From a virus: 24,623 bases of DNA. The notes below the pieces were generated by a model, which worked only from the letters and a program-made list of their open reading frames with translations, ran no database searches and was not told the origin of the DNA. Positions 3,741-24,623 of the stretch are shown here, piece after piece. The stretch is taken from positions 1 through 24,623 of IMG/VR virus record IMGVR_UViG_3300023179_000494. One strand, written 5' to 3'. Numbering within the stretch: the stretch's first letter is position 1; each line of letters begins with the position of its first letter. A program made the translations under genes and the position numbers.

Positions 3741-3768
3741 TCCTAAAATCGATTTAGGATATTTTTTT
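3741..3768 (+). terminator. Small terminator-like hairpin between sheath and tube genes
   Basis: TCCTAAA (3741-3747) pairs with TTTAGGA (3753-3759) and is followed on the plus strand by a T-rich run ending at 3768. It reads as an intrinsic terminator for plus-strand (antisense) transcription. On the minus strand it has no U-tract. It lies just after the stop of the 3767-6778 gene. The 7-bp stem is weak. Confidence 0.4.
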
Positions 3769-6700
3769 ATGATGTAAATTGTACTGAGTTTCTGGTTAGA
3801 ACGAATGTTACATCGATAAATTCAAGCGCACGGGTTGGTTGAACAACGATTTTGCCACGTATTGTTCTGTTGGCTCTATCGAGTGCTGTGGTTGTTGTTG
3901 TGTCAATCACTACTCTGTATTGATCAACGCCACCAAGATCTTGAATTTCTTTTAACACTGGTTCAATTTGACGTTGGAACCCTGCGAGAGCATCGTCTGT
4001 ATATTGTTCAAATAGGTTAGATTTGGCAATTGCACGGATTCTCCTTCTAAGGGTTAGCATCATTCTGCGGACATTGATACGTTCTAGGGCTGAAACTGTT
4101 GCGTTAACTGTCTTTTGTCCCCAGACTTTAACTCCTTGGCCTTGGAAGGCTGTGATTGGGTTAATTTTTTCTGGATATAGATCGTCAATGTTTTCTTGTT
4201 TAAGATTTAGTGCAGTTCTTTCAACAGAGTTTAGAGCGCCACGGCTGAAGCCTGCTGGTGCAAACCATGGGTGACCGATAAGATCATTTAAACCGTATGC
4301 GCCTAGAACGGCAACTGTTGGTGGTACACGAACCGATACTCTGTTAAAGTCGTCTCTAATGATAACATCTGGGAAGTAGGCGGCAGCGTAAGATGAATTC
4401 AATCCTCTATTTCTAAAGTTTGTAATTGTTTGAGAGATAGAAACATCTTGTGAGTTTGGATCAACAACAGCGTTACCATATGTATCTTCTTCTTCGATAT
4501 CAAAGATGTAGAAAATATCTTTTCTGTCATTTGTTGCGATATCAATTGCTGCATCAGTAATAATTGAATGACGGATTCCTGGGAGTACAAAAAGTCTGCC
4601 GTCAACTTCAGAGGCATCTGATACAAGATGCAGAGCTTTTGTATAGGCTTTAACAGTTGGACCATTTGAGAAACCTCTGTTTGAAGAGTCCATTTCTTCT
4701 GTTATGGCTTTGTTTGTTAGGTAGTTTGTGTCTGTGTTAAAGATTCTTACTCCATCAAAACCGCCATAGAAATATGTTGTAAATTTAGCAATGCTTCTGG
4801 TTGTTGGATCAGCAAGATCGCTTAATGTTAGTGCTCTTGTTAGATTGGTTGTATTTGTTGCAATATTACCTGCACGGACATATGTCCAATCTTTTAGTCT
4901 GTTAACATCGGGTAAGTTTGTAGCAGATATATAATAAATTTGAACTTTTTCAAGACTGAAAAGGTTATTATTAAACCTATCTGCATCTAGGATACCATTT
5001 GTGGTTGTATCTGCCACGCCTTCATTGTTATCAACAGTAAAATTCATCCAATCAAGTTGGAAATTTGGGAAGTATTTGCTTCTTGATGGTAAGCTTTTGT
5101 TTGGTACTGCTGAACTATTTGGTTCGCTAATAGAAACAACGTTTTCAAATTGTACGCCCCAGTACAGTGAGCGATCAACTGTTTTGGTTGTACCAGAACC
5201 TTTTGTTAGTGCTGATCTATATGGAACTGGCGGCTCAACAACTTTATAGAATGGATTTTGTGAGCTCAAATAAGCAGCATCACTGAATGCTGGCAAAGGA
5301 GAAGAACCAGATGTTACCAAGTGTTGTGGACCTCTAAAGCCCATTGGCATTAATCCAGAGTTAATATCTCCATTATCAACCAACGCATTCATTTCAACAC
5401 GAATATAACGTGAACGTAGATCATAGTTGCCTGTTTCGGTTAAGCCTTGTTGATCTTCTCCAATATCAAAATTATAATAAACGTGTTTATCGCCAATTTG
5501 TTTGGCGATGTATGAATCTGATGTTGGATTTAGTGTTAATCCTCTAAAGGCTTCTAAAACAACCTTACCGCCATCTGAATCGCCAAAGCTTCTTACAACA
5601 ACATCGAATGTGCCGTATGGAGCGGCATCGTTTGTTGATGGGAAAATGTTTTCAATGCTAACTTTAACATTGTTTTTATCACCATCAGAAATTAGATGTA
5701 GTTTAAAGAGGTTTTGATATAAACCACCTTGTTTTTGTGAAATAAACCAAGGTGTGTGGGCTGTTTGATAACGGTCTTCAAAATTTTCGTAGTTTGGAGC
5801 AGTTGCTGAACCGCTGTTGCGAGTTTGTGAACCAGTAACCAAGAATGCGATATTTTCTTTTGTTCCACCAACAGCATTTAAAATAATACCAGAACCAGTT
5901 GGCACAGCAATTGCACTTTGAATGTCATAATAAGAATAAAGAACATATCCTGCTTCTTCCATTCTTTGTGCATCCCTGTTGAAAACATTACCAAAATAAT
6001 TTGGGGCAGAAGGATCAAAAGATGCTGTAAGGGCTCTTGGGAAAAGTTCATTTGAACCTTTGTGACCGTTGAGAAGCATTACGAATTCTTGAGCGCCATT
6101 TAATAAATTAACTGTACCTGTAACGTAACCTTTGACAGTTCCTGCTGAAAAATCAGCAGAAGTTGATGCGCTAGGCAATGAAGAGTCTGGGTCTTTTGAT
6201 GAAGAAAGGCGCAAGATTACGCCTGATGCAGCCATGATTACGCCACGTAATACAGGTTGACCAACCCCAGATAAACCAGCATCACTAAACAAGGTTGATC
6301 CAGCACTTTGGCTCATATATGCGCCAAGAAAATATGTTCTGCCTAGTGTGCCAGCAGCAGTTGGAGATGTGGAAGTTGCATTTGCATATGCATTGTTTCC
6401 AAGACCGCCAGAAAGTGCGCTTTGTGGTTGTTGCGCGCCGACAACGAAACCAGCACTTTCTACTTTACCTCTGTTGTCTCCACTTTCTGTTCTTTTTAAA
6501 CCCAAACCAACACCAAGAACTCTAATCTGAGTTAATGCTTGCTGTGTTCTAAACCATTCAGTTGCTGCTAGAGAACCATAGTTTAGATACGTTCTTGGGA
6601 AACCAAAGTAGCTTCTCCAATCTTGTAATGTTGGTACTAGTACAGGAACAAATGCTGGCCCGATTTCTGTAGTTGAAATAATAACAGCAGGTAAGCCAGA

Positions 6701-6778
6701 AGGAAGAATAGATGTTCCTCCACTTAAGTCGATTTCACGAACTCCGACACCCGCGCTTTTAAATGTTAGATCTACCAT
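3767..6778 (-). CDS. 18: Tail sheath protein, tube-proximal copy (T4 gp18-like)
   Basis: 1003 residues, well above the 659 of T4 gp18. Contractile outer sheath of the tail. N-terminal signs: VGVREIDLSGG and GPAFVPV (40-46). Central: the YGTFDVVVR...DSD strand with IRVEMN and YGGFDGVRIF. The conserved C-terminal domain runs from INPITAFQGQGVKVWGQKTV through RINVRRMMLTLRRRIRAIAKSNLFEQ to GKIVVQPTRALEFIDVTFVLTRN, the part that links neighbouring subunits in known sheaths. The extra length lies in the middle, where sheaths usually carry surface domains. The ATG at 6778 is preceded by AAAGG with good spacing. It is a clear but diverged paralogue of the upstream gene at 6899-9964 and is separated from it by a strong terminator, so it probably has its own promoter. 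It is followed by the tube gene. Confidence 0.93.
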   Translation of the reverse strand: MVDLTFKSAGVGVREIDLSGGTSILPSGLPAVIISTTEIGPAFVPVLVPTLQDWRSYFGFPRTYLNYGSLAATEWFRTQQALTQIRVLGVGLGLKRTESGDNRGKVESAGFVVGAQQPQSALSGGLGNNAYANATSTSPTAAGTLGRTYFLGAYMSQSAGSTLFSDAGLSGVGQPVLRGVIMAASGVILRLSSSKDPDSSLPSASTSADFSAGTVKGYVTGTVNLLNGAQEFVMLLNGHKGSNELFPRALTASFDPSAPNYFGNVFNRDAQRMEEAGYVLYSYYDIQSAIAVPTGSGIILNAVGGTKENIAFLVTGSQTRNSGSATAPNYENFEDRYQTAHTPWFISQKQGGLYQNLFKLHLISDGDKNNVKVSIENIFPSTNDAAPYGTFDVVVRSFGDSDGGKVVLEAFRGLTLNPTSDSYIAKQIGDKHVYYNFDIGEDQQGLTETGNYDLRSRYIRVEMNALVDNGDINSGLMPMGFRGPQHLVTSGSSPLPAFSDAAYLSSQNPFYKVVEPPVPYRSALTKGSGTTKTVDRSLYWGVQFENVVSISEPNSSAVPNKSLPSRSKYFPNFQLDWMNFTVDNNEGVADTTTNGILDADRFNNNLFSLEKVQIYYISATNLPDVNRLKDWTYVRAGNIATNTTNLTRALTLSDLADPTTRSIAKFTTYFYGGFDGVRIFNTDTNYLTNKAITEEMDSSNRGFSNGPTVKAYTKALHLVSDASEVDGRLFVLPGIRHSIITDAAIDIATNDRKDIFYIFDIEEEDTYGNAVVDPNSQDVSISQTITNFRNRGLNSSYAAAYFPDVIIRDDFNRVSVRVPPTVAVLGAYGLNDLIGHPWFAPAGFSRGALNSVERTALNLKQENIDDLYPEKINPITAFQGQGVKVWGQKTVNATVSALERINVRRMMLTLRRRIRAIAKSNLFEQYTDDALAGFQRQIEPVLKEIQDLGGVDQYRVVIDTTTTTALDRANRTIRGKIVVQPTRALEFIDVTFVLTRNSVQFTS

Positions 6779-6898: not shown

Positions 6899-9800
6899 TT
6901 AAACTAACAAGAATGTTCCGCTATTTGTGATAATAAAATCTAGAACAATGTATTCAATTGATTCAATTGGTTGAACCAAAACTGTTGCGTTTAATTTATT
7001 ATTTTCTCTATCAACTTCTGTATTATTGGTATCATCACAAACCACTTTAAAGGCTTTGATGCCTTTGGATTGCTGAATTGTTGATAGTTGTAATGAAGTT
7101 GCCGTGATAAATCTATCACGAATTTCATTTGTTAGTTGTTCAAACAAGAGGTTATTACCAATATTTGCAATTGCTCTTGCCACTTCAATTGCAAGACGTT
7201 TAACATTTACTCTAGAGGTAAGAGCATTTATTCCTTGTTTGAGGGTGTATTGAGAGAATATTACAAAGGTGCCTTCATCTTTAAAGATTGGGTTAATTCT
7301 TGTATCATAGAATAAATCCTTATCAGAAGCTTTAACTCTTTGAGATACGCCCTTAACAAATGAAAGTGCGGCACGATTTAATCCTGCGGCAGCATACCAT
7401 GGATATGCAACTCTATCATTAAATCCGTATGCAGCTAGTGCGGCAACAGAAGCTGGAACAACAGTTAGTTTGTTGTTTACATTATCTTCAATTGTTACTG
7501 ATGGGTGATATACTGCAACAGCATTGTTATTTAATGCTCTTGCATCAAATTCTTGTGCTGTTTTAGTATTATCAATATAATGTCCAATTTCTCCATCAAA
7601 AATTCTTACAGAATTGGAATCATAAGCTGGAATATCCATTATGTAGAATGCCTTGCCGAAACTTAGAACTTTTTGTGCGGCATAATCTGTAACAACTGGT
7701 TCACGTTGACCTGGCAATACAACCAAGTTAGATGGTGATGTTAATGGATCTGTAACAACATTAACGGCTGTTTTATAGCTATTAACTTGGTTGTTATTAT
7801 CTCCAACACCATTTTGGTTTGTTGTAAATCCTGGAGAAATGTAATTTGAGGCAGCACCGCCAAATCCAATTGAACCAGATTCTACTGATGTTGATCTGTC
7901 TGTAAATCTTCTAGCATCTTTATCTAGAATGTTTACACCATCAAAACCACCGTATATTAAAGTTGTAAACTTCGCATATTCGGCAAAACGGTTAAAATCT
8001 GATGGAGAACCTTTTTGCAAAATGGTTGCAAAAGTGATTCTATCTCCATAGCTGCCATCAGTAATTTTGTAGTTTGTTCCATCTGGCACACCATTTCTGA
8101 TATACGCCGCATTTTTCATAATTGTCCCAGTTGATGATGTTAGATCAGCAATAGAACCATTAGCAAATGCAACACGGGCAAGAGTAAATTTGTTATCATT
8201 AAATAAATCTACACTAGAGCCTGTAATAACTGTATCGAGTTTTGGAATACCCGTAAATTTAGCGTAGCTTTTGATTATTGGGTTTAGTGTATCAGAAGTA
8301 TTTGTGTTTGTGGCATCGTTGTTTCTTTCAAATTTAACACCCCAAAACAATCTAGAATCTGCAATTTCTGTTGCTCCTGGTTGACCAGTAAATGCAGCAG
8401 AAGAAGTTATATTGCCTCTTGTTACTTTAAATCTAAATGGTAGTGGTGGTGCAATTGAACCAGTTAAAGCTGGGAAGGTTAGTATCGCCGCTGAAGCAGA
8501 AAGTGCCATTCTGCCAACACCTGATACGTCGGTTAATGAATCACTTGATTTTATAGTGGTTACACCTCTAAACCCAAATGGTAATGCACTGGCTGGAGTA
8601 ACTTTTGTTAATACATTTGAGTTTATGGCAACTCTAATATATTTGGATTTATTTGGATATGTACCTATTACTTGAAGACCACGATCAGATTCACTTTCAA
8701 AATCAAATTTATATGAAGTTTTTGTGTCGCCAATCACTTTGCCAATGTAGTTATCCGAATCTTGATCAAGAGTTACGTTTGTAAATTGTTCAAGAATTTC
8801 TTGGTTAAAATCACTATCGTTAAAGTTACGAACTAGAACTGTAAATGTTCCATATTGATTGTTTGGATCTGAAGATGCTTTTAGATTTGCAATTGAAATT
8901 TTCACCATTTCATTTGCATTAGCGCCATCTGATAATGGTTCAAAAGAGAATAAGTCATATTCCAAGTTACCAAATGGTTGAGAAATAAATGATGGTGTGC
9001 TTGGAGTTGTGTATCTTGTATCAAATCTTCCAAAAAGATTTCTAAATGGAACTGAAGTTAAACCTCCTGTTGCAGTTGTACCAGCAGAGCCAGAAACAAT
9101 GCCAACTGAACTTGAAACAAATGTACCAGTTGCTACAGCGGCAATTTCTGCATCTACTGCAAAATCTGCATACAAGTAGTGACCAGTGGTTGCAAATTTA
9201 TCTGGATCAGTGTTTAGTACATTTGCATAGTAATCTGCATCAGATGGGTTTAAAGAAGCTGTATAAATTGTAATTCCAGCGAAGCCATCACTATTTCCAA
9301 ATGCAGTTCCAAGGCTTGTTGAAACAATTAGTTTAAATTTACCGTTTGTTATACTGTTTGAACCGCTATCAATTGTAGCAACGTCATCAAGAGCGTTTGT
9401 ATAGGATTCGTTTACGCCATCCATTATCATGATGCGTGAACCAGATGAGCAAAAGATCATGCCTCTTACTAAGTTAACCGCATTTCCTGCTAAAGAATAT
9501 GATCTGTTATCCGTAAACATTGGATAACCATATGCTTCTTGGTTTGTTAGAGTGTGGCGGGCAACTAAGAATTGAACAGCCCCTTGATGACGACCATCAC
9601 CTGAAATTTGAACTACCGAAGAAGAAACTGCAAAACCTGCGTTCTGCACAATCCCTTTTGTGCGGGTATCTTCAAAATCTCCAGAGCCGCTGTTTGTACC
9701 TGCTCCTAACAATCTAACGAAAACTGCGTTTGTTCTGTTTTCTAGCCATCTTTGGGAGGCATAAGTGGCTGGATAACCTGGGGTTACCGAGCCAAATATT

Positions 9801-9964
9801 GCTATTTGATCCGAAAATGAACCAAGTGAAACAGGTACAAATGCAGGTCCAAAAACTGATGCGCCAATAATTGCAGCAGGAGTTCCTACTGGTTGAATTA
9901 CTCTAAGTGAAGCATCAATTTCAGAATCATAATATCCTGGTGCTTTTAATATTTGTTCTGCCAT
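6899..9964 (-). CDS. 18: Tail sheath protein, neck-proximal copy (T4 gp18-like)
   Basis: 1021 residues, a second sheath paralogue. It shares with the other copy the N-terminal GPAFVPV (39-45), the central YGTFTVLVRNFNDSD and SKYIRVAINSNV strands, IYGGFDGVNIL, and the C-terminal domain from INPIFKDEGTFVIFSQYTL through RVNVKRLAIEVARAIANIGNNLLFEQ to VLVQPIESIEYIVLDFIITN. Overall similarity by eye is low outside these blocks, so the duplication is old or one copy was acquired separately. The ATG at 9964 follows AAAGG at a rather long spacing. Upstream is the gp15-like gene, downstream a strong terminator. It may build a mixed sheath with its neighbour or serve a different tail part; the sequence does not say which. 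Both copies look intact. Confidence 0.92.
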   Translation of the reverse strand: MAEQILKAPGYYDSEIDASLRVIQPVGTPAAIIGASVFGPAFVPVSLGSFSDQIAIFGSVTPGYPATYASQRWLENRTNAVFVRLLGAGTNSGSGDFEDTRTKGIVQNAGFAVSSSVVQISGDGRHQGAVQFLVARHTLTNQEAYGYPMFTDNRSYSLAGNAVNLVRGMIFCSSGSRIMIMDGVNESYTNALDDVATIDSGSNSITNGKFKLIVSTSLGTAFGNSDGFAGITIYTASLNPSDADYYANVLNTDPDKFATTGHYLYADFAVDAEIAAVATGTFVSSSVGIVSGSAGTTATGGLTSVPFRNLFGRFDTRYTTPSTPSFISQPFGNLEYDLFSFEPLSDGANANEMVKISIANLKASSDPNNQYGTFTVLVRNFNDSDFNQEILEQFTNVTLDQDSDNYIGKVIGDTKTSYKFDFESESDRGLQVIGTYPNKSKYIRVAINSNVLTKVTPASALPFGFRGVTTIKSSDSLTDVSGVGRMALSASAAILTFPALTGSIAPPLPFRFKVTRGNITSSAAFTGQPGATEIADSRLFWGVKFERNNDATNTNTSDTLNPIIKSYAKFTGIPKLDTVITGSSVDLFNDNKFTLARVAFANGSIADLTSSTGTIMKNAAYIRNGVPDGTNYKITDGSYGDRITFATILQKGSPSDFNRFAEYAKFTTLIYGGFDGVNILDKDARRFTDRSTSVESGSIGFGGAASNYISPGFTTNQNGVGDNNNQVNSYKTAVNVVTDPLTSPSNLVVLPGQREPVVTDYAAQKVLSFGKAFYIMDIPAYDSNSVRIFDGEIGHYIDNTKTAQEFDARALNNNAVAVYHPSVTIEDNVNNKLTVVPASVAALAAYGFNDRVAYPWYAAAGLNRAALSFVKGVSQRVKASDKDLFYDTRINPIFKDEGTFVIFSQYTLKQGINALTSRVNVKRLAIEVARAIANIGNNLLFEQLTNEIRDRFITATSLQLSTIQQSKGIKAFKVVCDDTNNTEVDRENNKLNATVLVQPIESIEYIVLDFIITNSGTFLLV

Positions 9965-13652: not shown

Positions 13653-14258
13653 ATGAAATTGAAAGATATTATTTTTGAAGCAGGTGCCATGAGCGGTGGT
13701 GGCGTCGTTGGCTACATGGGAGAAGAAGACACTAGTTTGGACGAGAAAAAACAAACAAAAAAAGATGACAGATGTACTAGAATTGCAAAAAGAAAATACC
13801 GTCGTTGGCCTAGTGCCTATGCCTCTGGTGCAGTAGTCCAATGTAGGAGAGGTAGGATATGGCGAGATCTAAAAGAAGAATTTGAAAATCTTGATTTAGA
13901 TGAAGAGTACGTTGACGCTTATCATGGCATGAATGAAGAAGAACAATTAGAAGAAGAAGTGTTGGTTAATCCCGAAGAAGTAAATGAAGAGATTATTGAA
14001 TTACTTTTAAATGAATTACTTTCAGAAGGTAAAAGATTTAAAGCAGAAAAAGAAAAGGGTTTGCATGGTTGGTTTTCAAGAAATAGAGGCAAAGGCTGGA
14101 TTGATTGCCGCACAGGAGGACCTTGTGGACGGGAAAAGGGAGAAAAAAGAAAATATCCAGCTTGCAGACCAACAAAAGCAATGTGCAATAAGGTTGGCCC
14201 AAGAAGAAAAAAAGGTAGAAAACCAGTATCTTGGGTTCCAAAAAGCAAACAAAAATAA
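13653..14258 (+). CDS. Putative packaged basic protein with capsid-targeting-like N-terminus
   Basis: 201 residues in three parts after a leader. Residues 1-24 are almost the same as those of the gene at 1176, with I-F-E|A at 7-10. Residues 32-72 are basic with Cys41 and Cys64 and the motif RWPSAYASGAVVQCRRG, which I recall as recurrent in phage and giant-virus proteins of unknown function. Residues 73-125 are very acidic (runs of Glu). Residues 126-201 are basic: GLHGWFSRNRGKGWIDCRTGGPCG, then KYPACRPTKAMC with four cysteines, possibly metal-binding, and a Lys/Arg-rich end. A second L-S-E|G site (123-126) falls exactly between the acidic and last basic parts. I infer a DNA-associated internal head protein matured by the prohead protease. 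No Shine-Dalgarno sequence is visible before the ATG. It probably shares a transcript with the gene at 14312. Confidence 0.82.
   Translation: MKLKDIIFEAGAMSGGGVVGYMGEEDTSLDEKKQTKKDDRCTRIAKRKYRRWPSAYASGAVVQCRRGRIWRDLKEEFENLDLDEEYVDAYHGMNEEEQLEEEVLVNPEEVNEEIIELLLNELLSEGKRFKAEKEKGLHGWFSRNRGKGWIDCRTGGPCGREKGEKRKYPACRPTKAMCNKVGPRRKKGRKPVSWVPKSKQK
13665..13691 (+). repeat. 27-bp exact repeat, copy 2 (5' coding cassette)
   Basis: Identical to 1188-1214, in the same codon positions (5-13) of the gene at 13653. See the first copy. Confidence 0.9.
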
Positions 14259-15327: not shown

Positions 15328-16329
15328 TTATAAATTATTTTGTTTTATTTTGTTTAACAATTCTCGTTGTTCTTCCGTAATTGATTGTGGAAACTCGGGA
15401 ATAATATTAATCTTTAATAAACCTCGTTTACCATTTTTTGGTAAACCCTTGTCTTCAATAACCACTTCATTTTGACTGGTTGTAAATTGAAATACTAGGT
15501 TTTCTTCCCCATCATGCAAATTTAGCTCCTTTTCTCCTCCAAGAAGAAAATCATAGATGCTAACTTTAACATCTTTCATTAGGTGTTGTTTGTTGGGTGA
15601 AAGATAAAAATCTTTTGGAATATCAATTGTTGTTCGTACAATATAAATAACTTCTACATCTTGTACATTTCTGCTTATTTTTCTACCAGATGGAGCGTTA
15701 GCTTGGACTTCTATTTCTTCTTTTAGATGTTGCGTAGTTGATCCAGAGCCATTGCACGATTTGCAATTTTCAATTTCAACACCCATGCCTCCACAATATT
15801 CGCAAGCGGTTTGGATCATTTGTTGAAAAAACCCGTTGGAAGATTTTTTCACTTGAGCCCCTGAACCATTACATTCATTACATTTGCGATTAGTTGGTAC
15901 AACACACCTACCCATGCAATCAAAGCAGGTTAAATTAAAGTTTAGATCTATGTTACGTTTGCATCCTTGCACCGCTTCCTTAAAAGATAAAAGGATTGGT
16001 TCATTAATTTCAACTTCAACTTGCTTTGGTTTTTCTTGCTTTTGTTGCCTCATTACTCCCCTGCCCATAAACTGGGCAAACATATCAGCTATATTGCCGA
16101 AATTAAAACCATGGTGTTGATTTTTTGAGGCTTCATAACTGCCGTCATTGATAGAGTTATAAGCGTTTTGAACTTGTTTAAATTTGTTTTCTGCCGTAGC
16201 TTTTTCTTCGTCAGTTTTACCATTTTGTCTATCAGGATGATATTCAAAACATTTTGCCCGATAAGCTTTTTTTAATGTTTCTTCATCACATCCCTCAGAT
16301 ACACCTAATACTTCATATGGATTTTGCAT
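15328..16329 (-). CDS. dnaJ: DnaJ-type (class A) co-chaperone
   Basis: 333 residues from the ATG at 16329 (start NPYEVLGVSEG); an upstream in-frame TTG at 16380 would add 17 residues unlike any J-domain and is less likely. DnaJ proteins pass clients to Hsp70 (DnaK) and trigger its ATPase through the HPD motif, seen here at 31-33. Then comes a very short Gly/Phe segment (HHGFNFGN, 72-79) and a zinc-binding region with four CxxC pairs (135/138, 150/153, 176/179, 189/192). The first repeat reads CFDCMGRC instead of CxxCxGxG. A C-terminal substrate domain follows, with DFLLGGEKEL and KGLPKNGKRGLLKINI typical of DnaJ CTD II, and no clear dimer extension. All main ligands are kept, so it should be active. 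Its place among tail genes suggests a role in virion protein folding, probably with host DnaK; that is inference. Confidence 0.93.
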   Translation of the reverse strand: MQNPYEVLGVSEGCDEETLKKAYRAKCFEYHPDRQNGKTDEEKATAENKFKQVQNAYNSINDGSYEASKNQHHGFNFGNIADMFAQFMGRGVMRQQKQEKPKQVEVEINEPILLSFKEAVQGCKRNIDLNFNLTCFDCMGRCVVPTNRKCNECNGSGAQVKKSSNGFFQQMIQTACEYCGGMGVEIENCKSCNGSGSTTQHLKEEIEVQANAPSGRKISRNVQDVEVIYIVRTTIDIPKDFYLSPNKQHLMKDVKVSIYDFLLGGEKELNLHDGEENLVFQFTTSQNEVVIEDKGLPKNGKRGLLKINIIPEFPQSITEEQRELLNKIKQNNL

Positions 16330-16356
16330 GTTTGAGATAACTTTCTTGGCTAGTAT

Positions 16357-16376
16357 CAACACTGTCTTTAGTGTTG
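16357..16376 (-). other. Short hairpin upstream of the DnaJ-like gene
   Basis: CAACACT pairs with AGTGTTG (7 bp, 6-nt loop) between the stop of the 16391 gene and the favoured DnaJ start codon. It may influence translation or processing. There is no U-tract, so it is not an intrinsic terminator. Confidence 0.35.
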
Positions 16377-16390
16377 TCAACTTAACTTGT

Positions 16391-23285: not shown

Positions 23286-24341
23286 ATGAAACCAAATAAA
23301 TCAAAATTTATTTATGAGGCAGTCTCAAACTATCGTAATGAAGTGAATGTTGCCTATAATATAATAAAAGAAGCTCTAAAAAATCCTGCTTTTGCAGAGG
23401 TAAAAGTCAAATATAAAAACGTTTTAGAAGTACAACTTAACGAAGCGTTTTTTCCAACCGCACCTTCATTAAGAAGACTATCTGTTGGGCCAGCATTAAC
23501 TGGCCCAACAACAGCGGCACTAAATGCAATTGCTAGACTAGAATACTTGCTAAATACAACTGATCCAACTACAAATGAAGTTGGAGCAAAAGAAGTTGCA
23601 ATGCTTAATAAGGCAATCAATGATGCAGCAGAAACTCTTGATTTTGAAAGAGATAAAGATGAAGAAAGATTAAATGCTAGACTAGCCAAAGCTCCAACAA
23701 AAGAAGATCGCGACATGCTTGTTGATGAGATAAATTCTATCGCCAAATCAGTAGAAACTGTTAAACAAAATGCCAAAGTTGCGCTTAGTAAAGCATATTT
23801 TAGATTAAAAGAACTTCTTGATTTTTTTGCCGCAAAAAAATCAGAAATTGATGCGGTTATTAACAACGTAATTTCAGCAAGCACTGATTTATCTAAACAC
23901 AGAATTGGTAAAGGTTCAGCACAAGCAGCAATTAAAGCGGCAGAAGTAAGAAGAGAAAAGAAACTTAAAGATATTGAGCTTGAAGATGAAACAGAAGCAT
24001 TTGAGAGAAAAATAAAAGGGGGTGGAATTGGTTCCATGCTCCGAGGTTTATTTAGAGAAGAAAAACAAAAAATTCACGAAGGTTTAATGAGCGATTTATT
24101 AAGTCCTGGTAACGGTCAACTTGATAAATACACATCAAAAGTTGACGCTTTTATTGACGAGGCAATCGAAACCTGCGATGAACTAGTTGAAGAAGGCAAT
24201 AGTATACTAGAAGAAGATTTTTATCGCCTTCCACAAGCAGGGGAAAGATCAAGATTGATTCTTGAAATGATTGGTTTAATCAAGAAATTTAAATGCGATC
24301 TTGAAAACATTCCATGGCAACTTAGACAACGTATGGGTTAA
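23286..24341 (+). CDS. Putative internal head or scaffold-like helical protein with multi-site leader
   Basis: 351 residues, largely helical and charged, no named family. The first ~54 residues hold three (I/L)-x-E|A sites: I-Y-E|A ending at residue 11, I-K-E|A at 29 and L-N-E|A at 53. The next gene begins with a paralogous leader carrying sites at 9, 27 and 50. More such sites occur later: I-H-E|G (265) and I-D-E|A (292). The middle (100-245) is probably coiled coil (KDEERLNARLAKAPTKEDRDML, AAEVRREKKLKDIELEDE). This pattern, many prohead-protease-type sites in a helical protein, recalls T4 scaffold and internal proteins. The start is fixed by AAAGGG 8 bases upstream. The gene points away from the baseplate block and is followed by a palindrome and an intrinsic terminator. 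The role is inferred from the leader, not from homology. Confidence 0.82.
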   Translation: MKPNKSKFIYEAVSNYRNEVNVAYNIIKEALKNPAFAEVKVKYKNVLEVQLNEAFFPTAPSLRRLSVGPALTGPTTAALNAIARLEYLLNTTDPTTNEVGAKEVAMLNKAINDAAETLDFERDKDEERLNARLAKAPTKEDRDMLVDEINSIAKSVETVKQNAKVALSKAYFRLKELLDFFAAKKSEIDAVINNVISASTDLSKHRIGKGSAQAAIKAAEVRREKKLKDIELEDETEAFERKIKGGGIGSMLRGLFREEKQKIHEGLMSDLLSPGNGQLDKYTSKVDAFIDEAIETCDELVEEGNSILEEDFYRLPQAGERSRLILEMIGLIKKFKCDLENIPWQLRQRMG

Positions 24342-24358
24342 TCTAAAATTTTAGATTA
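24339..24358. repeat. 20-bp perfect palindrome at the stop codon
   Basis: TAATCTAAAA and TTTTAGATTA meet without a loop, starting at the TAA stop of the gene at 23286. It may form a weak hairpin or cruciform before the terminator, or serve as a protein site. Confidence 0.6.
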
Positions 24359-24367
24359 AAATTATAG

Positions 24368-24405
24368 AGGCATCAGTGTTAATCAACTGATGCCTTGTGT
24401 TTTTT
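24368..24405 (+). terminator. Rho-independent terminator
   Basis: A 10-bp perfect stem, AGGCATCAGT with ACTGATGCCT (24368-24377 and 24386-24395), 8-nt loop, followed by TGTGTTTTTT. It ends the transcript of the gene at 23286 before the paralogue at 24448. Confidence 0.9.
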
Positions 24406-24447
24406 ATAAGATCTATTTTTTTAGTTTATATTTATTTCATATAAATC

Positions 24448-24623
24448 ATGAATAAAAATAAATTATTACTTGAAGCAGTAAAATACCAACAAAAAAAACT
24501 TGGTCATATAGAAGGTATATTAAAAGAAGCACTAGCACATCCTGTGTTTGAATCTCTTAAACAATTTGAAAACGAACTTGAATATCAATTGTTTGAAGGA
24601 GTTGTTTATGGTATTGTAGAGCG
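24448..24623 (+). CDS. Partial gene: paralogue of the leader of the gene at 23286
   Basis: 58 codons are visible before the window ends. The ATG at 24448 lacks a Shine-Dalgarno sequence; its context matches the HNH gene start over 17 bases. The leader is alignable with the gene at 23286: (N)K-x-K...LLEAV against FIYEAV, GILKEALAHPVF against NIIKEALKNPAF, and LEYQLFEG against LEVQLNEA. The three candidate cleavage sites (L-L-E|A at 9, L-K-E|A at 27, L-F-E|G at 50) keep the 18- and 23-residue spacing. I infer another internal head protein made as a precursor. The body is outside the window, so nothing can be said of its mature function. Confidence 0.8.
   Translation, partial: MNKNKLLLEAVKYQQKKLGHIEGILKEALAHPVFESLKQFENELEYQLFEGVVYGIVE

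Follow-up and report, generated by a model that had tools for sequence, protein, structure and literature searches.

Two tandem genes at the 3' end of this viral DNA encode products that begin with similar leaders of about 50 residues, and the locus raises the question whether these leaders are propeptides cut during head maturation and, if so, what kind of proteins carry them. The window, i.e. the whole stretch analysed here, is a complete IMG/VR record of 24,623 bases, so that the gene at 24448 ends with the contig. It is a fragment of a T4-like myophage. Its minus strand bears the tube gene (gp19 family), a tandem pair of giant sheath-type paralogues and further putative tail genes, while on the plus strand the genes at 23286-24341 and from 24448 onward sit past a gene for a putative baseplate protein of about 1064 residues (Table 1). 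The sheath-type paralogues (3767-6778 and 6899-9964, 1003 and 1021 residues) are paired likewise in the related contigs G002 and G013. A gene for a DnaJ-type co-chaperone lies within the tail gene cluster (15328-16380), and a similar-looking gene is present in G002 (102781-103773). The T4 late-promoter consensus TATAAATA is not enriched in the window.

Table 1. Features of the locus formed by the genes at 23286 and 24448. Bars in motifs mark predicted cuts.
Feature	Position	Strand	Remark
351-residue predicted all-helical protein: leader 1-53, N-terminal body 54-265, C-terminal domain 266-351	23286..24341	+	
Site 1 propeptide MKPNKSKFIYE|A, targeting-sequence-like, 11 residues	23286..23318	+	Glu and P1' Ala invariant in three leaders
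Predicted released peptide, 18 residues, ending IKE|A (site 2, Glu29)	23319..23372	+	
Predicted released peptide, 24 residues, ending LNE|A (site 3, Glu53)	23373..23444	+	
N-terminal body, residues 54-265, helical	23445..24080	+	Homologous to separate 215-residue ORF of G002
Putative vestigial N-terminus of formerly separate C-domain gene, M251-LRGLFREEKQKIHE, ending in site 4 IHE|G (Glu265)	24036..24080	+	Based on alignment with start Met and leader of separate C-domain genes
C-terminal domain, residues 266-351, predicted helical hairpin, acidic (pI 4.5)	24081..24338	+	
Intrinsic-terminator-like hairpin between both genes, GAGGCATCAGT-loop-ACTGATGCCTT, then T run	24367..24396	+	
Second leader copy, gene cut by contig end, 58 residues read; LLE|A 9, LKE|A 27, LFE|G 50	24448..24623	+	

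The preliminary description of this locus had aligned the two leaders, and they are indeed homologous (40% identity over 50 residues, E = 5e-5; nucleotide identity 58% when aligned by codon). The (I/L)-x-E|(A/G) sites lie exactly where it had placed them, at residues 11 (IYE|A), 29 (IKE|A) and 53 (LNE|A) in the 23286 product and at 9, 27 and 50 in the second copy, and would delimit inner peptides of 18 and 24 and of 18 and 23 residues, respectively. The view that this pattern is hard to explain by chance is borne out by shuffling, in which at least three strict [IL]xE[AGS] sites occur in a leader with P = 4e-5 (gene 23286) and 1e-3 (gene 24448), and by the body segments of 60 residues from the ORFs of the window, G002 and G013, only one of which, among 1273, has three strict sites. 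The match in spacing between the two copies is, however, partly a matter of common descent. Since the copies are not independent, relatives were sought, their conservation being the better test.

Single-sequence searches with the window protein against 50,697 phage records and viral contigs yielded no relatives, and neither Pfam nor PHROGs contained a reliable match for the 23286 protein. Relatives were reached only via the sheath, neck and capsid genes. The most informative one, found through its sheath protein, is the 204-kb contig G002 (G001 is an overlapping assembly, evidently of the same phage), in which a collinear homologue of the 23286 protein adjoins the same baseplate gene. Its leader carries LTE|A at residue 10, LKE|M at 28 and LHE|S at 52, with the same spacing as in the 23286 leader. 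A leader profile run against all sequence gathered recovered the three known leaders and no further homologue; the conservation argument therefore rests on three sequences. Although these are only 28-40% identical, the three Glu and the Ile or Leu at each P3 are kept, so that the features of a protease substrate, an aliphatic P3 and Glu at P1, are present at three sites in three of three leaders. Complete conservation of [IL]xE at all three sites has a column-shuffle P of about 7e-4, and a cruder test, asking that three given columns all be invariant, gives P = 0.011. The sole exception among the small P1' residues is the Met after the second Glu in G002. In all three leaders the first site closes a stretch of about ten residues ending in L/I-x-E and followed by a small residue, as in the propeptides of T4 internal proteins.

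What could cut at such sites is indicated by the same relative. The window fragment is without a protease or capsid gene, and the evidence for the protease comes from G002, where genes are present for a head-maturation protease (phrog_207, E = 5.5e-35), a portal protein and a T4-type capsid protein. T4 gp21 cleaves after L/I-X-E; it splits gp22, gp67 and other core proteins into several pieces and takes targeting propeptides of about ten residues off internal proteins (PMC9026906). In the capsid proteins of the clade a Glu stands at the position of T4 gp23 maturation, from which its role is deduced, in 79 of 79 sequences, followed by Ser (52), Ala (16) or Thr (5); P3 is Leu in the sequences printed. 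The capsid propeptide holds another Glu (LLE-N-Q, position 51 of the G002 protein, in which the maturation Glu is residue 66) that is likewise found in 79 of 79. The protease gene in relatives and the invariant capsid Glu make it most likely that the leader serves as a propeptide for targeting and is cleaved by the prohead protease.

A fourth conserved site, missed by the preliminary description, lies far downstream of the leader in the 23286 protein (IHE|G, 265/266). The counterpart in G002 consists of two ORFs, one of 215 residues ending in TAA and a second of 102 residues starting MKKVQFKNEMKTVLKE|GLLSK, while the window has a single frame reading GSMLRGLFREEKQKIHE|GLMSD at the joint, with M251 aligned to the start Met of the small G002 ORF. 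Seven other records (G002, G013, G025, G038, G056, G060 and G062) encode the C-domain in a small ORF of its own. The aligned copies have a short leader that ends in (I/L/V)(K/H)E|(A/G), at about residues 13-16 in most of them. The Glu is invariant in 8 of 8 aligned sequences, which correspond to about five independent lineages as G025, G056, G060 and G062 are close relatives; it follows Ile, Leu or Val at P3 and is the sole invariant column of the leader region. Two further records with the domain, G030 and G059, are cut by contig ends and were left out of the leader comparison. Separate genes being the common state, the 23286 gene is most simply explained as an in-frame fusion that arose through loss of a stop codon, and its product resembles a pair of protease substrates joined in one frame whose intervening cut site has survived. 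That the motif by itself is no proof of cutting is illustrated by a strict match, IDE|A at 292, which lacks conservation and falls within the hairpin that was predicted with confidence.

Searches for the C-domain in the genome collection, in T4, in the phages Mel-JY01 (Microcystis) and immuto (Flavobacterium) and in about 95 other records found no copy. For the genes upstream of the C-domain gene in G013, G038 and G056, considered as counterparts of the N-terminal body, homology was not detected. A histone-deacetylase-family gene (PF00850, E about 1e-30) lies near the C-domain gene, 3' of the tail genes, in several relatives (L235:295-1152, L059:14456-15337, L234 and L233).

Cutting at all four sites would yield fragments of 11, 18, 24, 212 and 86 residues. 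The 212-residue fragment (residues 54-265) has a pI of 8.1 and a net charge of +1, the 86-residue fragment a pI of 4.5. The full-length model is all-helical and of low confidence (pLDDT 54). The C-domain was modelled as a helical hairpin (pLDDT 79) preceded by a low-confidence stretch that holds site 4, and a fold search with this hairpin returned nothing at E below 0.5.

We consider it probable, at roughly 70%, that the leader is a three-site propeptide, that the products of both genes are internal or core head proteins and that the 23286 protein is a fusion cut at 265/266. The sequence shows the sites, how well they are conserved, the gene split in relatives, the protease gene and the conserved capsid site; on this basis we infer cleavage itself, packaging and the fate of the peptides as follows. 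The products of both genes would belong to the internal or core proteins of a T4-like phage head. The first ten or so residues would do what the capsid targeting sequence does in T4 internal proteins and carry the protein into the prohead core, and after shell assembly a gp21-type prohead protease would cut the leader at its three (I/L)xE|(A/G/S) sites. An 18-mer and a 23- or 24-mer would result, most likely exiting the head. In the 23286 protein, a second head protein would be fused behind the first, its former targeting leader having become an internal linker, and the cut at IHE|G would give a protein of about 23 kDa and a C-domain protein of about 10 kDa.

The closest parallel is offered by the T4 internal proteins IPI-IPIII, which also have an N-terminal propeptide of about ten residues ending in L/I-x-E and similar leaders on diverse bodies. 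Here, in contrast, two more conserved sites follow within a leader of about 50 residues, and the gene at 23286 appears to combine two substrates, with a site between them. Assignment to the T4 internal protein class was rejected because neither predicted fragment is clearly a small basic protein (212 residues with pI 8.1 and 86 residues with pI 4.5); though not filed there, the 23286 protein may work like one. The ejection proteins gp53 and gp54 of the giant phage SPN3US resemble the present case in that one propeptide receives several cuts, as established by mass spectrometry (PMC10052503), but their propeptides are 125-137 residues long and the protease motif is another; the likeness implies no relation in sequence. 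T4 gp23 and its homologues in the clade share an N-terminal propeptide ending in L-x-E|S/A with a Glu invariant in 79 relatives; they differ in being shell rather than internal proteins with a single maturation site.

Conservation of the Glu residues might instead reflect an amphipathic leader helix with a structural or binding role and no cutting at all. The leader is in fact predicted to be helical at residues 5-30 and 34-43, five further residues (Glu 48, K28, L31, F36 and K40) are invariant in the three-way alignment, KEAL-type words are generic helix formers and (I/L)xE is common in helical proteins. We nevertheless regard this explanation as unlikely, since the 18/24 spacing has no heptad pattern, an aliphatic P3 and a mostly small P1' are conserved alongside the Glu, site 4 lies in a low-confidence linker ahead of a domain that has its own gene in other records, and the same motif recurs in the capsid protein of the clade. 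Nor is it likely that the leader is the module of T4 gp67 (PIP), a prohead core protein, and that the entire precursor is degraded as scaffold. T4 gp67 does have three N-terminal E|A/G sites (6, 22 and 46) with a similar spacing, 16/24 against 18/24, but comparison by hhalign of the leaders with seven gp67 sequences gave a probability of 0.3% over one column, and in seven orthologues of gp67 the last of the three Glu alone is invariant. Two traits of gp67 are likewise missing, namely the acidic C-terminal tail after the third site and a position directly after the portal gene; the gene at 23286 adjoins the putative baseplate gene instead, and in G002 this location is about 38 kb from the portal.

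Adjacency to the baseplate gene, in the window as in G002, and the position of the C-domain gene near the tube gene in G013 would also suit a component of the tail or baseplate, unconnected with the head pathway, whose motif matches are fortuitous. The density and conservation of the three sites and the E|A/G conserved before the C-domain in every aligned copy speak against this possibility, to which we give little credence. As to the peptides, the preliminary description had the two inner ones released and kept like the small head peptides of T4. Whereas cleavage of the sites is supported indirectly, by the conserved Glu residues, the capsid site, the protease gene of relatives, the position of the leader and the fourth site, retention is not. 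Both leader peptides could persist as small functional components of the mature head, given that their lengths of 18 and 23/24 are conserved and that processed fragments of core proteins do occur within T4 heads (PMC9026906), yet outside the site residues the peptides are poorly conserved, and published work on T4 and SPN3US suggests that propeptide and core fragments mostly exit the head (PMC9026906, PMC10052503), which makes such a role highly improbable. We also doubt a bolder version of the propeptide reading, according to which the 23286 product would be a head polyprotein created by stop-codon loss between adjacent genes for two substrates with targeting of their own, and tolerated because the protease separates its halves, with the inner peptides conserved as released products rather than debris.

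Leaders of the single-site kind occur elsewhere in the window. The genes at 1176-2096 and 13653-14258 encode unrelated bodies behind a common leader of 26 residues, MKLxDIIFE|AGAMxGGGVxGYMGE, which is 85% identical (82% in DNA over 72 nt), has IFE|A at residue 9 and, judged by these sequences, is a modular leader. The product of 13653-14258 is a basic DUF5872 protein. As unrelated bodies share a leader here, the bodies encoded by genes 24448 and 23286 are not necessarily paralogous. In G002, nine N-termini carry [LIF][LIVF]FE at residues 6-16, a density 10.6 times that in protein bodies with a P of 3e-7 that is qualified by the choice of the pattern after inspection of the data, while the broad N-terminal [IL]xE is not significantly enriched across G002 and G013. 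Five tandem genes of G002 (117561-120883) have the near-identical N-termini MKIK(P/S)LIFE, and a run of tandem small proteins at 82855-93643 has a common NGTKYWYKEGKLHREDGPA-like sequence. Targeting-like N-termini are also present on the products of 192684-193478, 195751-196251 and 200452-201165; one of these matches GNAT acetyltransferases (PF00583), and the other two, without a Pfam match, contain the glycine-rich loop-like sequence LGEGxxRxVFDLGxGKxIKFA. All three are possibly packaged enzymes.

Head processing at this locus would thus be of the known T4 style and act on a new protein family, and a fusion that keeps its cut site would add some interest. T4-style head processing would extend to a large group of uncultured T4-like phages, in which the code I/L-x-E|A/S/G may be readable as a guide to packaged, possibly injected proteins. 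The fusion with its retained cut site would be a natural test of whether a fused head protein can be separated into its parts by the prohead protease.
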